The translations under genes were made by a program, and so were the position numbers. Shown here piece after piece: positions 6,186 through 27,224 of a stretch of 64,000 nucleotides of DNA. The DNA is from Pirellulaceae bacterium (GTDB lineage Bacteria > Planctomycetota > Planctomycetia > Pirellulales > Pirellulaceae): the NCBI GenBank assembly GCA_026004775.1, contig BPJU01000004.1, forward strand, positions 248,001 to 312,000, in the 5' to 3' direction. The notes beneath the pieces were generated by a model, which worked only from the letters and a program-made list of their open reading frames with translations, had not been told where the DNA came from and searched no databases. Positions within the stretch are counted from its first letter, which is position 1, and the number at the start of each line of letters is the position of its first letter.

Positions 6186-8517
6186 ACCGCTCGTGGTCGA
6201 CCCGATCGCCTTCGATTGGGGACTGGACGGCAGTCTGTATGTCGTCGAAATGCGTGATTATCCGAACGGCGTGCCGGAAGGGCCGTTGGGCCGCATCAAA
6301 CGCCTGCTCGATGACGATCGGGACGGCATCTATGACCGGGCCGAAGTGTTCTTGGAAGATTTGCCGTTTCCCACCGGTCTGAAGGTGTGGCGCGACGGAT
6401 TGCTGGTCCTTTGCCCCCCGGAATTGCTGTTTGTCCAGGATCAAGACAAGGATGGGAAAGCAGAACGGCGGGAGGTCTGGTTCCGCGGGTTCGCTCCCGG
6501 CAACCCGCAACACCGCGCCAATGGATTGCGATGGGGTTTGGATGGATGGCTTTATATCGCCAACGGTGACAGCGGTGGGACCATCGAGTCGGTCAAGACA
6601 GGCGAACGGTTATCAATCAGCGGCCGGGATCTGCGTATTCAACCGGATACGGGCCGCATGGAAACCGTAGCCGGGCAGACGCAGTATGGGCGTTGCCGCG
6701 ACGATTGGGACAACTGGTTCGGCGGCAACAATTCCAATCCGTTGTGGCACTATGTTCTGCCCGAACAGTACATGCGGCGCAATCCGCACTGGCCTGCCCC
6801 TAACCCGCGGCACGATGTGCCGGAAATTCCCGGTGCCGCCCCGGTCTATCCTCGCAGTTTCACCCTGGAGAGATTCAACGACTTTCACATGGCCAACCGC
6901 TTCACTTCGGCATGCAGTCCGGAAATCTATCGAGATCGGGTGCTGGGCGACACGTTTGCCGGCAACGCCTTCGTGTGCGAGCCGGTACACAATCTGGTGC
7001 ACCGGCTGGTTCTGGAACCACAGGGTGTTACGTTCCGCGGCCGCCGAGCTGCGGAGGAACAGCAATCGGAATTTCTAGCGTCGGAGGACAATTGGTTTCG
7101 CCCTGTGATGGTTCGGACCGGCCCGGATGGTGCTCTCTGGATCGCCGACATGTATCGGCTGGTAATCGAACATCCCGAATGGATACCGCAAGCGTGGCAG
7201 CAAAAGCTCGACCTGCGGGCCGGCGATCAGATGGGGCGTATTTGGCGCGTCGTACCACGCGACGGAACGGCCGGTGCTGTTCCCCGGCTGGACGGTTTGA
7301 CGATCGAACAATGGGTGGCATTGCTGGACCAGGATAACGGGCCGCTGCGCGACATGGCCCAGCAACTGCTCTTGTGGCACAACGCCGTGTCGATGCGTGA
7401 AGCGTTGGAGCAACTGGTGCGGCGATCCAGCCGGCCGGCGACTCGAGCCCAAGCTCTGGCCACACTGGATGGCTTGGATATCCTTTCCATTCCGCTGCTC
7501 GAGGCGGCTTTAGAAGATCCCCATCCCCAAGTCCGGCGGATTGCGCTGCGGATCGCCGGGCGCCGGCTTCCCAGCTCTCAGTCCCTGGTCTCGGCGTTAG
7601 AGCGGCTTGCCGGCTCGGAAACCGATCCGGCCGTGTTATTCGAGTTGATCTGTGTGTTGGGAGAAGTGCCGGGGCCGGTGCCGTTGTGGAGCCTGGCGGA
7701 ACGAGCGCCCCAGGACCGGTTCTTCCAGGCGGCGTTCGCCAGCTCGCTTCGCTCGGAAAACATCGAGGCAATCGTCGAACAGATGCTGGCGGCGACGCGG
7801 GTGCGTAACGAGTGGCCGGCCATGGCCTTGGCGGCCCCGGTGGTCCGCTTCCTGGCCGCCACCAACAACACGGATCGGCTCGTCCAAGTACTGGAGTGCT
7901 GGGTGCAAGGCAGAGCCGACAGCCCGGTACTGGTGACCAAACGACTGGAGTTACTGGAAGTGCTGTTTCGGTACTGGCCTGCCGCGGCCGGGCAAGATAG
8001 ACCCGAAGTGCAGCGTTGGACACGCTCGGTGCTCGAAGAAGCCCAGCAGCTCGTGTTGAGCGACACCAGCGGCGTGGAGCTTAAGGCATTGGCGGCTCGC
8101 TTGCTGGCCGCCAGCGCCTGGGACCGCAAGCAGGCGATCAGCCTGCTGATGGCGATGCTTTCCCCACGGCAACCGCAACAAGTTCAGGCAGCCGCTATCG
8201 AGAGTCTGAGCCGGTTCAGTGACCCACAGGTCGCTGACCAGATGTTAGAAGGCTGGCACTCGTACTCGCCGGCGACCCGTTCCAGAGTTTTGGATGCCAT
8301 CTTGGCTCGCCCCGATTGGACAATGCGGTTGCTGGAGGCCCTGCAACAGGAGCAGATCGGGGTGCGCGATCTGGATGCGGCTCGCCGCCGACAACTTCTT
8401 TCCCACGCCAACGAAATGATTCGCACACAAGCCGAAAAACTGCTGGCGGCCACCGTTCCCTGGCGACCGGCAGAGGGTGGTGGCACAATACGCAGCGGTG
8501 AAAACGCTACCGTCTGA
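6136..8517 (+). CDS. PVC-type membrane-bound dehydrogenase domain plus HEAT-like helices, third part of the frameshifted large protein
   Basis: The first recognisable residues are RVMHVDPRCRVQLVASEPLV, the usual entry into the PVC dehydrogenase propeller (the family often annotated TIGR02604, related to soluble glucose dehydrogenase). The propeller continues with VVEMRDYPNG, HRANGLRWGLDGWLYIANGD and GPDGALWIADMYR. From about 7300 to 8450 come helical HEAT-like repeats. Enzymes of this type oxidise a sugar or alcohol outside the cytoplasm and pass electrons to a fused cytochrome. The cytochrome follows here after a third +1 change: GGG at 8475-8477 has one base too many, since removing one gives GAG GTG GTG and a smooth join. 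Residues from 8478 to 8517 in this frame are therefore probably artefactual. Confidence 0.85.
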   Translation, partial: RVMHVDPRCRVQLVASEPLVVDPIAFDWGLDGSLYVVEMRDYPNGVPEGPLGRIKRLLDDDRDGIYDRAEVFLEDLPFPTGLKVWRDGLLVLCPPELLFVQDQDKDGKAERREVWFRGFAPGNPQHRANGLRWGLDGWLYIANGDSGGTIESVKTGERLSISGRDLRIQPDTGRMETVAGQTQYGRCRDDWDNWFGGNNSNPLWHYVLPEQYMRRNPHWPAPNPRHDVPEIPGAAPVYPRSFTLERFNDFHMANRFTSACSPEIYRDRVLGDTFAGNAFVCEPVHNLVHRLVLEPQGVTFRGRRAAEEQQSEFLASEDNWFRPVMVRTGPDGALWIADMYRLVIEHPEWIPQAWQQKLDLRAGDQMGRIWRVVPRDGTAGAVPRLDGLTIEQWVALLDQDNGPLRDMAQQLLLWHNAVSMREALEQLVRRSSRPATRAQALATLDGLDILSIPLLEAALEDPHPQVRRIALRIAGRRLPSSQSLVSALERLAGSETDPAVLFELICVLGEVPGPVPLWSLAERAPQDRFFQAAFASSLRSENIEAIVEQMLAATRVRNEWPAMALAAPVVRFLAATNNTDRLVQVLECWVQGRADSPVLVTKRLELLEVLFRYWPAAAGQDRPEVQRWTRSVLEEAQQLVLSDTSGVELKALAARLLAASAWDRKQAISLLMAMLSPRQPQQVQAAAIESLSRFSDPQVADQMLEGWHSYSPATRSRVLDAILARPDWTMRLLEALQQEQIGVRDLDAARRRQLLSHANEMIRTQAEKLLAATVPWRPAEGGGTIRSGENATV

Positions 8518-16544: not shown

Positions 16545-16618
16545 GGTGGCTGAAGGGATTCGAACCCTCGACCCTCAGAGCCACAATCTGATGCTCTAGC
16601 CAGCTGAGCTACAGCCAC
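16545..16618 (-). tRNA. tRNA-His (GTG anticodon)
   Basis: Read on the minus strand, a complete cloverleaf is visible. The acceptor arm GTGGCTG pairs with CAGCCAC, the D-arm is TAGCTCAGCTGGCTAGAGC, and the anticodon stem TCAGA/TCTGA closes the loop TTGTGGC, giving anticodon GTG. The T-arm carries GGTTCGAAT. The discriminator base is C and a G precedes position 1, both identity marks of tRNA-His. CCA is not encoded. Confidence 0.96.
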
Positions 16619-22052: not shown

Positions 22053-23069
22053 ATGTTCTGGTCGTTTCTATTACCACTATGCCTGGCCGGACAAGCAACG
22101 GCAGCCGGCACGCAGCCGCAGGTGCCGATCTATTTCGAATTGATTATGGACCGCGGATTCCCCGTGGGCGAAGAACGCGTTTGGCTGGAACAGTTGGCCA
22201 AAATCCCTGGCGTTTCTATCCGCATTCGGGCCGCCGAGTTGGGTGAGCAACCGAAAATCGAGCGTGAAGGACGAGGCTGGCGCGTGCTGGGCAGGCTCAC
22301 CGCTGCCAATCGACTGGTGCTTCCGGGAGCCCAATTCGCTTTGGGGGATCAGGCCGCACTGGCCGGCTACGTGACGCGCCTTCGCAACGATGGCCCCGAT
22401 GCGGTTACGTTGCCGCCCGGACCATTCGGCCTTACCGAACAGAACTTCAAGGAGTTGTTCGAAAAACTCCAGCCCCCGGTAGGTCAGTCGACGGCCAACA
22501 TGCCGGTGGACGAGTTCGTTCGCATGGTTGCCCGCCGATCCGGACTGGCGATCGAACCTGCTCCGGACGTGTTGGCCCAGTGGGCGACGTCCCGAGTACA
22601 AGACGAACTGTCGGAATTAAGCTTGGGGACAGCACTGGCTGCGGCGGTGCGCCCCTGGGGATGGGTCGTCACGGTTGATCGCTCAGGGGGGATGACGCGG
22701 CTGCGAGTTGTTCCGCCCGACCAGGCCAGGGGTTATTGGCCGATCGGCTACCAGCCGGAGGGAACGGTACGCCGGACGCTGCCGGCGCTGTTTACTTTCC
22801 TTACGGTGGAAATCACCGATACCCCGCTTTCGGATGTACTGGAGGCTGTTCGAGGGCGGCTTCGCGTGCCGATTCTGGTGGACCACAATGGATTGGCCCG
22901 CGAAGGTATTCGCCTGGAAGAAGTGCAGGTGACTCTTCCTTCGACACGCACTTACTACAAACGCATTCTGGACCAGGCCCTCTCCAAGGCGCGGCTGCGT
23001 GTTGAATTGCGGGTTGACGAAGGCGGACGGCCGTTTTTGTGGGTGGTGCCGATCCGACAATCACCCTAG
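22053..23069 (+). CDS. Secreted protein of unknown function with a secretin/STN-like tail
   Basis: A 338-residue protein starting at ATG 22053 with a short signal peptide (FWSFLLPLCLAGQATA). The N-terminal half has no recognisable domain. From about residue 155 two similar segments follow: VDEFVRMVARRSGLAIEPAPD...LSLGTALAAAVRPWGW and VEITDTPLSDVLEAVRGRLRVPILVD. These resemble the short beta-alpha-beta repeats of secretin N-terminal and STN domains, the second more clearly. I cannot tell whether it belongs to a secretion system; no secretin or ATPase gene is nearby. It stops 9 bases short of the convergent DUF1338 gene. Confidence 0.7.
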   Translation: MFWSFLLPLCLAGQATAAGTQPQVPIYFELIMDRGFPVGEERVWLEQLAKIPGVSIRIRAAELGEQPKIEREGRGWRVLGRLTAANRLVLPGAQFALGDQAALAGYVTRLRNDGPDAVTLPPGPFGLTEQNFKELFEKLQPPVGQSTANMPVDEFVRMVARRSGLAIEPAPDVLAQWATSRVQDELSELSLGTALAAAVRPWGWVVTVDRSGGMTRLRVVPPDQARGYWPIGYQPEGTVRRTLPALFTFLTVEITDTPLSDVLEAVRGRLRVPILVDHNGLAREGIRLEEVQVTLPSTRTYYKRILDQALSKARLRVELRVDEGGRPFLWVVPIRQSP

Positions 23070-23077
23070 TTGCCGGT

Positions 23078-24037
23078 CTAGCGGGGGCGCGTCATCTCGA
23101 AAAGATGCGTCGCTTGAGGTCCCAGGAACCCTTCGAATCGTACGCTCTGTCCGGTAGCCGGATCGCGGACCGATCCACGCTCAGCCAGTTCGAAGTAGGC
23201 GTACGTCCAGGGCACCGTGGTTTCTTGGCCGCCGTCAGTGACCGTAACGTCGCAGACGACGGCGGCGGTTGCGGTTTGGCGCAAGATCGAACCCCGCTCG
23301 CCCTCAATCTCCTCTTTCATCGGCACGCCCGACTTGCGCAACAGTTCCGCCGTCTTTTCGATATCGTCCAATTCAGGCACACCGTGCGAATTGATCAGTG
23401 AGGTAAAATGATTGACGTTGTATCCATGCACCAATACCCATGCCCCATATTGGCTGGACTGATGGACGGCCAGGAGATCATCTTTTCGAGGCGGCGGCCA
23501 CGGCAATTGTTCGATGAAACTCAACACCGTCTCCAGCAGCTCGGCTTGTTGCAATGAAGTTTGTTCCTCCAGACGACACAATGCCGCCAGCAGCTCCACG
23601 GACGGCAGCGGCCGATGAGCCTCCAGCGACCGCTGGAAAACAGGGAGAATCGACGCCGGCAGGCGCCATGTTTGCAACTCAGAGATAAAAAGTTTCGGCA
23701 ACATCCCATTCGGATGCTGATAGTGAACGGCGGCCAGATGCTTGTCGTCGAACCAGTAAGTCCCAGCCGCTCGATAACCGAGGCATTCGAACAACCGCCC
23801 CAATACGGCAATGCCCGTCATGGGCTGTTGCCATGCAATAGTCCGGAAAGCGATGTGATCGTTGTGGAAGTGCGCATGATACTGCTGCAAAAGTTCTTCA
23901 TATGTCTTTACGTAGCTTACCCGTTCGCGATAGCGTATCCACAGCCGATCGAACAGAGACGCCAGAAACTGCTCGGCAGCATCCGGACCGGCACAGCGCC
24001 GGTGCGGTCCGTCCACAGGCACGTTGAGCTTAGTCAT
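23078..24037 (-). CDS. DUF1338 protein, probable 2-oxoadipate dioxygenase/decarboxylase (HglS-like)
   Basis: A 319-residue protein with ATG 24037 and GGAG 8 bases upstream. The family landmarks are HAHFHNDHIAFRT (with the His used for iron), HGYNVNHFTSLIN and a late TYAYFELAERG carrying the Glu. Members of DUF1338 convert 2-oxoadipate to 2-hydroxyglutarate with loss of CO2, using Fe(II) and O2. It faces, across 220 bases, an aminotransferase and an ALDH7-type dehydrogenase, which would supply the upstream steps from lysine. The family call is strong; the substrate follows from the family and the neighbours. Confidence 0.85.
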   Translation of the reverse strand: MTKLNVPVDGPHRRCAGPDAAEQFLASLFDRLWIRYRERVSYVKTYEELLQQYHAHFHNDHIAFRTIAWQQPMTGIAVLGRLFECLGYRAAGTYWFDDKHLAAVHYQHPNGMLPKLFISELQTWRLPASILPVFQRSLEAHRPLPSVELLAALCRLEEQTSLQQAELLETVLSFIEQLPWPPPRKDDLLAVHQSSQYGAWVLVHGYNVNHFTSLINSHGVPELDDIEKTAELLRKSGVPMKEEIEGERGSILRQTATAAVVCDVTVTDGGQETTVPWTYAYFELAERGSVRDPATGQSVRFEGFLGPQATHLFEMTRPR

Positions 24038-24257
24038 CCAAGATACTCCGTCCGTAGCAATTCGGTCGGATTTTCCAGGGGCACAAGGTGATCGACCAGT
24101 GTACCCCAGATAATATGCGACAACAGTATTGTACCAATTCGCCGGGTATTGGGCAGTCGCTTCCAGCTTGCCGGTCGGTTGCGGGCGCGGTGCATCATCG
24201 TGCTTGCCCCGGGTTTCGGGCGGGCTAGGATAAAAAGAGAAGCAAAGGGGATCACTT

Positions 24258-25640
24258 ATGTTACGCCCATTAGCTGACGAGCCGGTGCCGCATTTGGTGA
24301 CGGAATTGCCCGGCCCACAAGCTCGCCAGTTGATCGCCGAAGACGAGCGGTACTTGTCTCCTTCGTATACGCGTGTCTACCCGCTGGCCGTGGCGCGCGG
24401 AAGCGGCGTGGTGATCGAGGATGTGGACGGAAACCGGTTCTTGGATTTTACGGCCGGTATCGCCGTCTGCTCGACCGGCCACTGCCATCCTCGTGTGGTA
24501 CAGGCGATCCAGCGACAGGCCGAGCAACTGCTGCACATGTCGGGCACCGACTTTTATTATGCGCCGCAAAAGGACCTGGCGCGGCGACTGGCTCTGGCGG
24601 CTCCCGGGAAAGATCCCAAACGCGTCTTCTTTACCAACTCTGGAGCCGAAGCGATCGAGGCCGCCTTCAAACTGGCTCGTTTCCACACCGGCCGCAAACA
24701 GATCATCGCATTCCGAGGGGCTTTTCACGGCCGGACGCTGGGAGCACTGTCGTTGACGGCCAGCAAGGTGGTGCAGCGCCGGCGCTTCGCACCGCTGGTG
24801 CCCAACGTCAGCCACATTGATTTTCCTTATTGTTTTCGATGTCCGCGGCGAGCGGCCGACGGGTGTTGCGGCCAGCCCCTGGAACAGCTCCAGCAGCTTT
24901 TCCGGCAAATCGTGGCTCCCGACGAAGTTGCCGCCGTGTTTGTGGAACCGATACAAGGCGAGGGGGGATACATCGTGCCGCCGGCCGATTTCCACCGGCG
25001 CCTCCGCCAGATCACTCAAGAACATGGGATCCTGCTGGTCGCCGACGAAGTCCAAACCGGCATGGGACGCACAGGCCGGTTGTTCGCGATGGAGCATTTC
25101 GGAGTCGAACCGGATATCATCTGTTTGGCCAAAGGGATCGCTTCCGGAATGCCGCTGGGGGCGATGATCGCACGAGCGGACATCATGACCTGGCCTCGCG
25201 GTTCCCACGCCAGTACCTTCGGCGGCAATCCGGTCTCGTGTGCCGCCGCCCTGGCCACGCTCGATCTGTTGGAAGAAGGACTCGTCGACCACGCGGCTCG
25301 CATGGGACGCCTGCTGCTGGACGCCCTGAACCGACTTGCTCGCCGCTACCCGATCATCGGCGATGTGCGAGGATTGGGACTGATGATCGGCATGGAATTG
25401 GTCCACCCAAGCGGTCCGCAAGCCGGGCAACCTTTCCCCGAAGCAGCCCAACGAGTATTGGACGGCTGTTTCCGGCGCGGGTTGCTGCTGCTGACCTGCG
25501 GCGAAAGTACGGTCAGATTCTGTCCGCCCCTGGTAGTTCAACAGCGCCATATCGAAGCCGCTATCCAAATACTGGACGAAGTGATTGCCCAGATCGATCG
25601 TGAAGCAGCCGCCCTTGCGACCGGCAAGGGCACCCCGTGA
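24258..25640 (+). CDS. Class III aminotransferase, candidate lysine 6-aminotransferase
   Basis: A 460-residue PLP enzyme starting at ATG 24258, just after AAAGGGGATC. Fold-type I class III motifs are clear: FLDFTAGIAVCSTGHCHP, VFFTNSGAEAIEAAFKLAR, GAFHGRTLGALSLT, VEPIQGEGGYIVPP, ILLVADEVQTGMGRTG and IICLAKGIASGMPLGA with the PLP Lys. A short Cys-rich insert (FRCPRRAADGCC) is noteworthy and matches the acetylornithine/4-aminobutyrate-like subgroup also found in archaea. The ALDH7 gene follows after 57 bases in the same direction, and DUF1338 is divergent, so lysine is the best guess for substrate; ornithine or 4-aminobutyrate cannot be excluded. Confidence 0.87.
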   Translation: MLRPLADEPVPHLVTELPGPQARQLIAEDERYLSPSYTRVYPLAVARGSGVVIEDVDGNRFLDFTAGIAVCSTGHCHPRVVQAIQRQAEQLLHMSGTDFYYAPQKDLARRLALAAPGKDPKRVFFTNSGAEAIEAAFKLARFHTGRKQIIAFRGAFHGRTLGALSLTASKVVQRRRFAPLVPNVSHIDFPYCFRCPRRAADGCCGQPLEQLQQLFRQIVAPDEVAAVFVEPIQGEGGYIVPPADFHRRLRQITQEHGILLVADEVQTGMGRTGRLFAMEHFGVEPDIICLAKGIASGMPLGAMIARADIMTWPRGSHASTFGGNPVSCAAALATLDLLEEGLVDHAARMGRLLLDALNRLARRYPIIGDVRGLGLMIGMELVHPSGPQAGQPFPEAAQRVLDGCFRRGLLLLTCGESTVRFCPPLVVQQRHIEAAIQILDEVIAQIDREAAALATGKGTP

Positions 25641-25697
25641 TCCAGCAGAGCTTCGCAAGCAGGTTGCCCGCTGCCGTCCAGCTACGGAGCGATCGCC

Positions 25698-27224
25698 ATG
25701 ACCAGTGATGCGATTCTCGACAAGTTCGGTATTACCGGCCAACAGTCGGGCGTGTGGTGCGGGGAATGGCTGGCCGGAGAAGGCGGCCAGCTCGTTTCGA
25801 TCAACCCGTCCACCGGGAAACCGCTGGGCGTTGTGCGGCAAGCATCGCGCAGAGAATACGACCAGGTGGTGGAACGAGCAGCAGAAGCGTTTCGACTGTG
25901 GCGCAGAGTACCGGCACCGAAGCGGGGCGAAGTGGTGCGGCAATTGGGTGAAGCGCTACGCCGATACAAGCGTGACCTAGGGTATCTGATTACGCTCGAG
26001 GCGGGAAAAATCCGCAGCGAAGCCGAAGGCGAAGTGCAAGAGATGATCGACATGTGCGATTTTGCCGTCGGCTTGTCCCGGCAACTGTATGGGTTGACGA
26101 TCGCCAGCGAACGGCCGAACCACCGGTTGTTCGAGCAGTGGCACCCGCTGGGCGTAATCGGCATTATCACGGCTTTCAATTTTCCCGTGGCGGTCTGGTC
26201 GTGGAATGCCGCGTTGGCTGCCGTCTGCGGCGATGCCATGATCTGGAAACCGTCGCAACTGACACCGCTTGCCGCCGTCGCCGTGCAACGGATTATCGAG
26301 CAAGTCGTGGGCGATGAGCCATGGAAAGCGATATTCAGTCTTTGCGTCGGTACAGGTCAGGATGTCGGTACCTGGATGGCGGACGACCCGCGGCTACCGC
26401 TCATCTCAGCCACCGGCAGTTGCGCCATGGGGCGAGCCTTGGCCCAACGCGTAGCCGCTCGCCTGGGACGTTCGCTGCTGGAACTGGGAGGAAACAACGG
26501 CGTGATTATTGCGCCATCGGCCAATCTGGAATTGGCTCTGCGAGCTGTCACGTTCGCCGCCGTCGGCACTGCCGGACAACGCTGTACCACACTACGGCGG
26601 TTGTTCGTGCACGAGTCCATCTTCGAATCATTTGTGGCGCGTCTGGTTGAGGCTTATCGATCGATACGGATCGGCAATCCATGGGAAGAAGGCGTGCTGA
26701 TGGGGCCGCTTATTCGCCAGGAGGCCGTTGCGGCGATGCTGGAAGCTGTCCAGACGGCTTGCCGGCAGGGAGCCAAGTTGCTCTACGGCGGGAAGGCGCT
26801 CGAGCGGGATGGATACTTCGTTGAGCCGGCAATTGTGCAAGCCACTCCCCAGATGCCGATTGTCAGCCAGGAGACATTCGCACCGATCTTGTATGTGATG
26901 GCGTACCGTGAATGGGACGAGGTGATCCGCTGGCACAATGCGGTGCCACAGGGTTTGTCGTCGGCCGTGTTTACTCGGGATTTGCAAGAGGCTGAGCGGT
27001 TTTTGTCGGTCGAGGGGAGCGACTGCGGGATCGCCAACGTGAACATCGGTACGTCGGGCGCCGAGATCGGTGGGGCGTTTGGCGGCGAAAAGGAAACCGG
27101 CGGCGGCCGCGAAGCCGGGTCCGACGCCTGGAAAGCCTATATGCGCCGCCAAACGTGTACCGTCAACTTCGGTGACGAACTGCCGTTGGCCCAGGGTATC
27201 CGTTGGGGAAATGCCGGCCAATAA
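25698..27224 (+). CDS. Aldehyde dehydrogenase, ALDH7 (antiquitin)-like, candidate 2-aminoadipate-semialdehyde dehydrogenase
   Basis: A 508-residue NAD(P)-dependent enzyme; ATG 25698 follows GGAG by about 10 bases. The segment ERPNHRLFEQWHPLGVIGII is the hallmark of the ALDH7 group and sets it apart from other ALDHs. The active site is complete: LLELGGNNGVIIA contributes the catalytic Glu and TAGQRCTTLRRLFVHE the Cys. ALDH7 enzymes oxidise 2-aminoadipate 6-semialdehyde, the product of lysine 6-transamination. It forms a likely operon with the aminotransferase 57 bases upstream. Confidence 0.92.
   Translation: MTSDAILDKFGITGQQSGVWCGEWLAGEGGQLVSINPSTGKPLGVVRQASRREYDQVVERAAEAFRLWRRVPAPKRGEVVRQLGEALRRYKRDLGYLITLEAGKIRSEAEGEVQEMIDMCDFAVGLSRQLYGLTIASERPNHRLFEQWHPLGVIGIITAFNFPVAVWSWNAALAAVCGDAMIWKPSQLTPLAAVAVQRIIEQVVGDEPWKAIFSLCVGTGQDVGTWMADDPRLPLISATGSCAMGRALAQRVAARLGRSLLELGGNNGVIIAPSANLELALRAVTFAAVGTAGQRCTTLRRLFVHESIFESFVARLVEAYRSIRIGNPWEEGVLMGPLIRQEAVAAMLEAVQTACRQGAKLLYGGKALERDGYFVEPAIVQATPQMPIVSQETFAPILYVMAYREWDEVIRWHNAVPQGLSSAVFTRDLQEAERFLSVEGSDCGIANVNIGTSGAEIGGAFGGEKETGGGREAGSDAWKAYMRRQTCTVNFGDELPLAQGIRWGNAGQ

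Follow-up and report, generated by a model that had tools for sequence, protein, structure and literature searches.

A gene trio in a Pirellulaceae genome consistent with a transaminase-initiated route from lysine to 2-hydroxyglutarate

We analysed a stretch of 64,000 nucleotides from a Pirellulaceae bacterium (GenBank assembly GCA_026004775.1, contig BPJU01000004.1, positions 248,001 to 312,000 of the forward strand), hereafter the window. Three adjacent open reading frames (ORFs) encode a DUF1338 protein of the hydroxyglutarate synthase (HglS) type, a class III aminotransferase (AT) and an aldehyde dehydrogenase (ALDH) of the ALDH7 family, and together they are likely to form a catabolic module for L-lysine. 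An earlier, sequence-only reading had described them as a compact lysine-to-2-hydroxyglutarate gene set. Its coordinates are exact and the families that it named were confirmed by Pfam; the adjacency held, whereas the genes do not form one co-directional run, as the DUF1338 gene is divergent from the AT–ALDH7 pair. The elements of the locus are as follows.

23078–24037, minus strand: DUF1338/HglS-type protein, 319 aa (ORF and PF07063)
24038–24257, no strand: intergenic region between the divergent start codons, 220 bp, presumably holding both promoters
24258–25640, plus strand: class III (omega) aminotransferase, 460 aa (ORF with Aminotran_3 and NF004426/PRK05769)
25698–27224, plus strand: ALDH7, predicted piperideine-6-carboxylate (P6C; 2-aminoadipate semialdehyde) dehydrogenase, 508 aa (ORF with Aldedh and NF050084)

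The AT and ALDH7 genes are separated by 57 bp, and the start codons of the DUF1338 and AT genes by 220 bp.

Protein families of the trio

The DUF1338 protein matches PF07063 (HGLS) with 105.1 bits (cut-off 25), and its phmmer matches include 3lho (E 5.8e-24), rice HglS 6w1k (E 8.6e-14) and 3iuz (E 5.9e-9). The His-His-Glu metal triad (H61, H210 and E283) and the substrate arginine of the HxxxR motif (R65) are all present. All 85 aligned rows of short-type DUF1338 proteins (81 after dropping four doubly fetched loci) share these four residues, in an alignment that is confined to the short type and omits full-length DUF1338 proteins and the three cut or split loci L258, L269 and L270. Based on alignment to 6w1k and on the account in PMC7286885, H61, R65, H210 and E283 correspond to H70, R74, H226 and E294 of HglS. 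The same account describes the metal triad as conserved and Arg74 as fixing specificity for 2-oxoadipate, the R74A variant being inactive, and attributes HglS activity likewise to rice FLO7, Arabidopsis AT1G07040 and E. coli YdcJ.

An AlphaFold2 model built from 25 sequences (predicted local distance difference test, pLDDT, 91.5) returned 6w1k_B as the top Foldseek match (E 5.7e-20, TMq 0.75), with Pseudomonas HglS 6w1h at E 1.1e-11. In VIA comparisons, 3iuz (Z 31.8) and 6w1k_B (Z 31.1, root-mean-square deviation 2.7 Å over 274 residues) tied at the top, and 6w1h was more distant (Z 21.9). By sequence and by model alike, the window protein belongs to the short form, and rice FLO7, 3LHO and 3IUZ are closer to it than Pseudomonas HglS is. 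Its predicted reaction is the conversion of 2-oxoadipate and O2 to D-2-hydroxyglutarate and CO2.

The ALDH matches Pfam Aldedh (445 bits, cut-off 23) and exceeds the cut-off of NF050084, the equivalog family of P6C dehydrogenase, with 776.2 against 730 bits, the next family standing at 293. Among the solved structures nearest to it are 6rtr (E 4.9e-180), which bears the name Pcd and which we take to be the S. clavuligerus enzyme, and ALDH7A1 4x0t (E 2e-171). The four other matches in the same genome share 26–31% identity with it. Judged by these relationships, the enzyme would catalyse the NAD(P)+-dependent oxidation of P6C or 2-aminoadipate semialdehyde.

The AT belongs to Pfam Aminotran_3 (422 bits, cut-off 30.5) and to NF004426/PRK05769 (637.8 bits, cut-off 552), a family labelled 'acetyl ornithine aminotransferase family protein'. 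It falls below the cut-offs of the class III 2-aminoadipate transaminase (NF049976; 332.4 versus 650 bits) and of the gamma-aminobutyrate (GABA) aminotransferase family (390 versus 507 bits). The canonical L-lysine 6-transaminase (LAT) family TIGR03251 (cut-off 520.8) does not appear among its best 25 of 69 families; as the last of these 25 stands at 295.5 bits, the AT scores about that at most for TIGR03251. The AT may work like LAT, though it lies outside the canonical LAT family. Its best PDB match is the archaeal 7vno (E 5.8e-119), presumably PH1423 of P. horikoshii, an ornithine/lysine AT. A table in PMC9986279 lists PH1423 as acting on L- and D-ornithine and L- and D-lysine, and less on 5-aminovalerate, 6-aminohexanoate and GABA; for TK2101 the donors given are L-ornithine and L-lysine, and the acceptors 2-oxoglutarate and 2-oxoadipate. 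The most likely reaction of the window AT is that of L-lysine and 2-oxoglutarate to P6C and glutamate. This assignment is based not on the family but on the ALDH7 partner and on the AT standing where relatives carry a lysine-6-dehydrogenase-like gene.

Recurrence of the trio and exchange of the aminotransferase

Six short stretches of the window DUF1338 protein were scanned against a collection of genome contigs, a procedure that favours close relatives; it gave 77 matching places and 47 confirmed loci, mostly in planctomycetes and also in Elusimicrobia, Sumerlaeota, a Lindowbacteria, two Bacteroidota and a Gloeobacterales metagenome-assembled genome (MAG). The complete trio occurs in 13 of the 47 loci, all in one divergent layout (ALDH minus, AT minus, DUF1338 plus), with distances between matches of 20–423 bp from ALDH to AT and 181–409 bp from AT to DUF1338. 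Several of these 13 are near-copies, and L235 is labelled 'Kuenenia' though nearly identical to Planctomycetaceae loci. Four further loci (L227, L230, L244 and L268) have the AT beside DUF1338, with ALDH7 not in the DNA examined there; in the genome of L230 (G372), ALDH7 lies on another contig. In the cyanobacterial (Gloeobacterales) MAG (L268:5742–7909), the AT and DUF1338 ORFs are on the same strand and end and start at base 7058, as if they were translationally coupled. In three Elusimicrobia loci (L243, L249 and L250), what lies upstream of DUF1338 is a saccharopine-dehydrogenase-like gene together with a different ALDH (families checked in L249).

A synteny survey of the order, as proposed with the sequence-only reading, found the trio adjacent in three of 296 genomes, the present one included (G000, G418 and G453, of which G418 is also L237 of the 13 loci). 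In G453 (L146) the trio is inverted as a block, and five flanking genes keep their order and strand. Because the same divergent layout recurs in 13 of 47 loci and in these three genomes, the adjacency is not a matter of chance. The earlier view that such a cluster is unusual for a planctomycete holds for the exact adjacent trio, found in these three genomes alone, but not for its parts, as DUF1338 occurs in 57 and ALDH7 in 66 of the 296. Both occur together in 40 (Fisher p 6.7e-19, phylogeny not corrected for). DUF1338 was found in 21 of 294 genomes in a sample of the phylum.

In related genomes, another gene stands beside ALDH7 and DUF1338. Its product, here called F2, is a 378-aa saccharopine-dehydrogenase-like protein (Pfam, L155). 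The F2 protein of L217 matches 3abi (PH1688; E 8.9e-23, residues 6–278 of 374), which we take to be L-lysine 6-dehydrogenase, and the 118-residue saccharopine dehydrogenase fragment 3ic5. At E 1e-60, F2 was found in 56 of the 296 genomes, and the present genome has none. The 66 genomes with ALDH7 comprise 50 with F2, eight with the AT (at least 600 bits), none with both and eight with neither; for the 40 with both ALDH7 and DUF1338, the respective counts are 28, eight, none and four. All eight ALDH7 genomes with the AT also contain DUF1338, and F2 occurs in none of the 17 DUF1338 genomes without ALDH7. F2 adjoins ALDH7 in 44 of the 49 genomes where both could be placed, and 13 loci have it in the middle, with DUF1338 and ALDH7 on either side.

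The AT and F2, which belong to unrelated families, take turns beside ALDH7 and DUF1338. Both would remove the epsilon-amino group of lysine, since the product of that reaction is the substrate of ALDH7, and PMC9854754 describes LAT and lysine-6-dehydrogenase as performing similar C-6 deaminations. With ALDH7 and DUF1338 kept, the exchange looks like non-homologous displacement, and this swap of the first enzyme for an unrelated one makes the prediction of a lysine route strong.

The F2–ALDH7–DUF1338 clusters of related planctomycetes (L155, L159 and L208–L220) are among the closest counterparts of the window trio, likewise having ALDH7 and DUF1338 in one cluster, but F2, with 3abi as its best PDB match, replaces the AT. 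Two of them (L155:6896–13557 and L220:4668–11294) group F2, ALDH7, an amino acid permease, DUF1338 and an ELFV-family dehydrogenase. The latter enzyme, beside DUF1338, could carry out the 2-aminoadipate step oxidatively, and the cluster may amount to a full dehydrogenase-based lysine pathway that covers the step absent from the window trio.

Phylogenetic trees separate these contexts. In the AT tree, 21 sequences group with moderate support (87/93), and 20 of them lie in loci with ALDH7 and/or DUF1338; the genome of the 21st (L287, G340) has both genes on other contigs. PRK05769 ATs accompanied by other ALDHs, and the cyanobacterial sequence of L268, fall outside this group. In the midpoint-rooted DUF1338 tree, all AT-linked rows are in a group of 48 (94/96), and rows linked to arginine succinyltransferase (AST) genes or to ALDH7–F2 are in a group of 31 (100/97). 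Full-length DUF1338 adjoins F2–ALDH7 in two further loci (L147 and L221). The DUF1338 proteins paired with AT–ALDH7 and with F2–ALDH7 are thus in different parts of the tree, which indicates that the link with ALDH7 arose more than once.

Proposed route, its second transamination and competing explanations

In the proposed route, the AT would transfer the epsilon-amino group of lysine to 2-oxoglutarate; the resulting 2-aminoadipate semialdehyde would cyclise to P6C, and ALDH7 would oxidise P6C or the semialdehyde to 2-aminoadipate with NAD(P)+. A second transamination, which may be performed by the trio AT itself or by a LysN/KAT II-like AT encoded elsewhere in the genome, would yield 2-oxoadipate. 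The DUF1338 protein, acting as an Fe(II)/O2-dependent hydroxyglutarate synthase, would then decarboxylate and hydroxylate 2-oxoadipate to D-2-hydroxyglutarate, and a YdiJ-like FAD/FeS dehydrogenase encoded elsewhere could return this product to 2-oxoglutarate. The candidate for that last step is a 976-aa protein scoring 440.8 bits against YdiJ, far short of the cut-off of 1350. The family assignments and the reaction order put forward in the sequence-only reading are supported by sequence, by the structure model and by the comparative context. The genome also encodes an LL-diaminopimelate aminotransferase (566.7 versus 364.7 bits), suggesting that lysine is made by that route; the trio therefore need not be biosynthetic.

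As the earlier reading had noted, the three genes include no separate one for the conversion of 2-aminoadipate to 2-oxoadipate. One LysN/KAT II-like aminotransferase query gave no match in the searched loci, trio loci included. In the rest of the genome, such an AT is encoded at C2:343351–344694 (L283:4352–5695), its nearest solved relatives being 1x0m (E 3.8e-64), PH0207 (E 5.5e-64) and the 2-aminoadipate AT 2egy (E 2.1e-47); PH0207 is listed as a kynurenine AT in the table of PMC9986279. The class I/II aminotransferases of the genome gave 16 matches; family scans covered the ten strongest except L167, and the LysN/KAT II-like AT was among those scanned. Class III paralogs were also considered and rejected as the missing enzyme; of the four besides the window AT, three fit argD, bioA and hemL and one is unclassified. 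That a single AT performs both transaminations, taking the epsilon-amino group from lysine and the alpha-amino group from 2-aminoadipate, is conceivable but doubtful; no second aminotransferase gene would then be needed and the trio would be self-sufficient from lysine to 2-hydroxyglutarate. The table of PMC9986279 gives L-lysine as a donor and 2-oxoadipate as an acceptor of the related TK2101, implying that the 2-aminoadipate half-reaction is open to such enzymes.

Several observations weigh against a catabolic lysine module. The 2-aminoadipate step has no dedicated gene in the cluster, and the PRK05769 family is a broad one, its ATs in other genomes adjoining other ALDHs in six of nine neighbourhoods (L284, L285, L288–L290 and L292 among L284–L292, one of the nine being that of G340). 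Among the 11 genomes whose AT reaches 600 bits, three (G387, G527 and G383) have neither ALDH7 nor DUF1338; the 600-bit line was itself set after the scores had been seen (622 above, 575 below), and weaker AT relatives (371–428 bits) co-occur with ALDH7 and F2 in G347, G370 and G487. The association of DUF1338 with ALDH7 carries the phylogenetic limit given above. No queried partner was found in 27 of the 47 DUF1338 loci, of which just six end within 3.5 kb upstream, on the AT side, and all 20 ALDH7 neighbourhoods fetched (of 110 over the cut-off in the phylum sample, F2 not queried) are without AT and DUF1338. Finally, DUF1338 adjoins AST genes without ALDH7 in eight loci (L092, L094, L095, L097, L098, L099, L101 and L158), so DUF1338 is not by itself a sign of the proposed route.

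The adjacency of the AT to DUF1338, which needs 2-oxoadipate, would also fit an AT that is a 2-aminoadipate transaminase only, with P6C supplied by another enzyme encoded elsewhere, and the use of 2-oxoadipate as acceptor by the related TK2101 (table of PMC9986279) makes the half-reaction plausible. The score of the AT for the class III 2-aminoadipate transaminase, 332 against 650 bits, speaks against this, as does the absence of F2 from the genome at E 1e-60. The AT moreover stands where relatives have F2, and the best PDB match of F2, 3abi, is presumably a lysine dehydrogenase; we regard this explanation as unlikely. We judge it equally improbable that the substrate handled by the AT and ALDH is a different omega-amino acid, such as ornithine, GABA or 5-aminovalerate, with DUF1338 as an unrelated neighbour. 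Elsewhere in the order, PRK05769-type ATs do adjoin other ALDHs, and according to the PMC9986279 table PH1423 and TK2101 use ornithine as well as lysine, PH1423 also acting weakly on 5-aminovalerate and GABA; but the window ALDH lies above the P6C dehydrogenase cut-off, DUF1338 accompanies every one of the eight ALDH7 genomes with the AT, and 13 of 47 loci repeat the trio, which in G453 is inverted as a block.

Very unlikely, in our estimate, is a module that makes 2-aminoadipate or D-2-hydroxyglutarate for use, as a secondary metabolite or overflow product. It would resemble LAT and Pcd of cephamycin producers, which supply 2-aminoadipate, pcd lying in the beta-lactam cluster of cephamycin-producing Streptomyces as described in PMC9854754. 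In the window, however, the adjacent HglS-type enzyme would consume the 2-aminoadipate carbon, the three adjoining proteins that were scanned are not of biosynthetic families, and the genome has a candidate for the return of 2-hydroxyglutarate to 2-oxoglutarate.

A catabolic lysine module would combine parts of several known systems. With the lower part of the D-lysine pathway of P. putida it shares an Fe(II) oxygenase of the HglS type, identical in four active-site residues, and, as proposed, the intermediates 2-oxoadipate and D-2-hydroxyglutarate. P. putida reaches 2-aminoadipate from D-lysine via pipecolate, whereas the likely entry here is a transaminase acting on L-lysine, and the window protein is short (319 aa) compared with the 434–450 residues of the 6w1g/6w1h chains. 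Plant lysine catabolism likewise employs a short DUF1338 enzyme (HglS, known as FLO7 in rice and AT1G07040 in Arabidopsis). Plants make 2-aminoadipate semialdehyde through saccharopine, whereas the trio would form it by transamination. The LAT–Pcd pair of cephamycin producers and Flavobacterium lutescens performs lysine omega-transamination followed by P6C dehydrogenation (as described in PMC9854754), which is the sequence proposed for the trio; in contrast to that pair, the window AT is of the PRK05769 family, short of canonical TIGR03251, and an HglS gene is added. The enzymes are known ones in a new combination, for which no description was found in the literature searched, which took in few subscription papers. 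If correct, this would represent a transaminase-started lysine pathway ending in an HglS-type oxygenase in planctomycetes. The exchange with F2 gives a likely function to an AT otherwise named only by its acetyl ornithine family label, and the context supports the action of short bacterial DUF1338 proteins on lysine-derived 2-oxoadipate.

AST-linked DUF1338 loci and surroundings of the trio

The eight AST-linked loci, all from planctomycetes and with short DUF1338, contain AstA and AstD in every case, AstB in six, a class III aminotransferase in seven and an M20 hydrolase in five. The label 'AstC' was rejected for their aminotransferase, which in L098 scores 82 against 610 bits for TIGR03246 and is a divergent class III aminotransferase. 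On one reading, N-succinyl-lysine is handled by AST-like enzymes in these loci, ending in 2-oxoadipate. An AST route was rejected for the present genome, which has no AstA match, and this context of DUF1338 in relatives is therefore not applicable to it. In L092 (9362–11008), a 548-aa ORF beside DUF1338 combines a response-regulator receiver (7–109) with a glutamate-dehydrogenase-type region (166–545).

Two further features of the window were recorded.

16545–16618, minus strand: tRNA gene (Rfam, gathering thresholds)
22053–23069, no strand given: 338-aa ORF beside the trio, with no Pfam or NCBIfam match at E 0.001

L146, though otherwise syntenic, has no linked homolog of the 338-aa ORF at the corresponding place. 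Of the proteins adjoining the trio, three were scanned: an unknown protein, a sugar-isomerase-like protein and oligoendopeptidase F.

At gathering thresholds the tRNA is the sole Rfam match of the window, the DUF1338–AT intergenic region having none, and promoter and terminator scans gave no more matches than expected by chance, the promoter-like ones in that region included. A shared regulatory element was rejected for the 12 divergent intergenic regions compared (the window and 11 loci), which align poorly (mean column identity 30%). The 20-base motif CTTGAATNCTACGGTANAAT is absent from the window even when up to three mismatches are allowed. It is conserved between AT and DUF1338 in L241 (6782–6801), L246 (6866–6885) and L255 (6814–6833), where it is possibly a shared promoter or operator.

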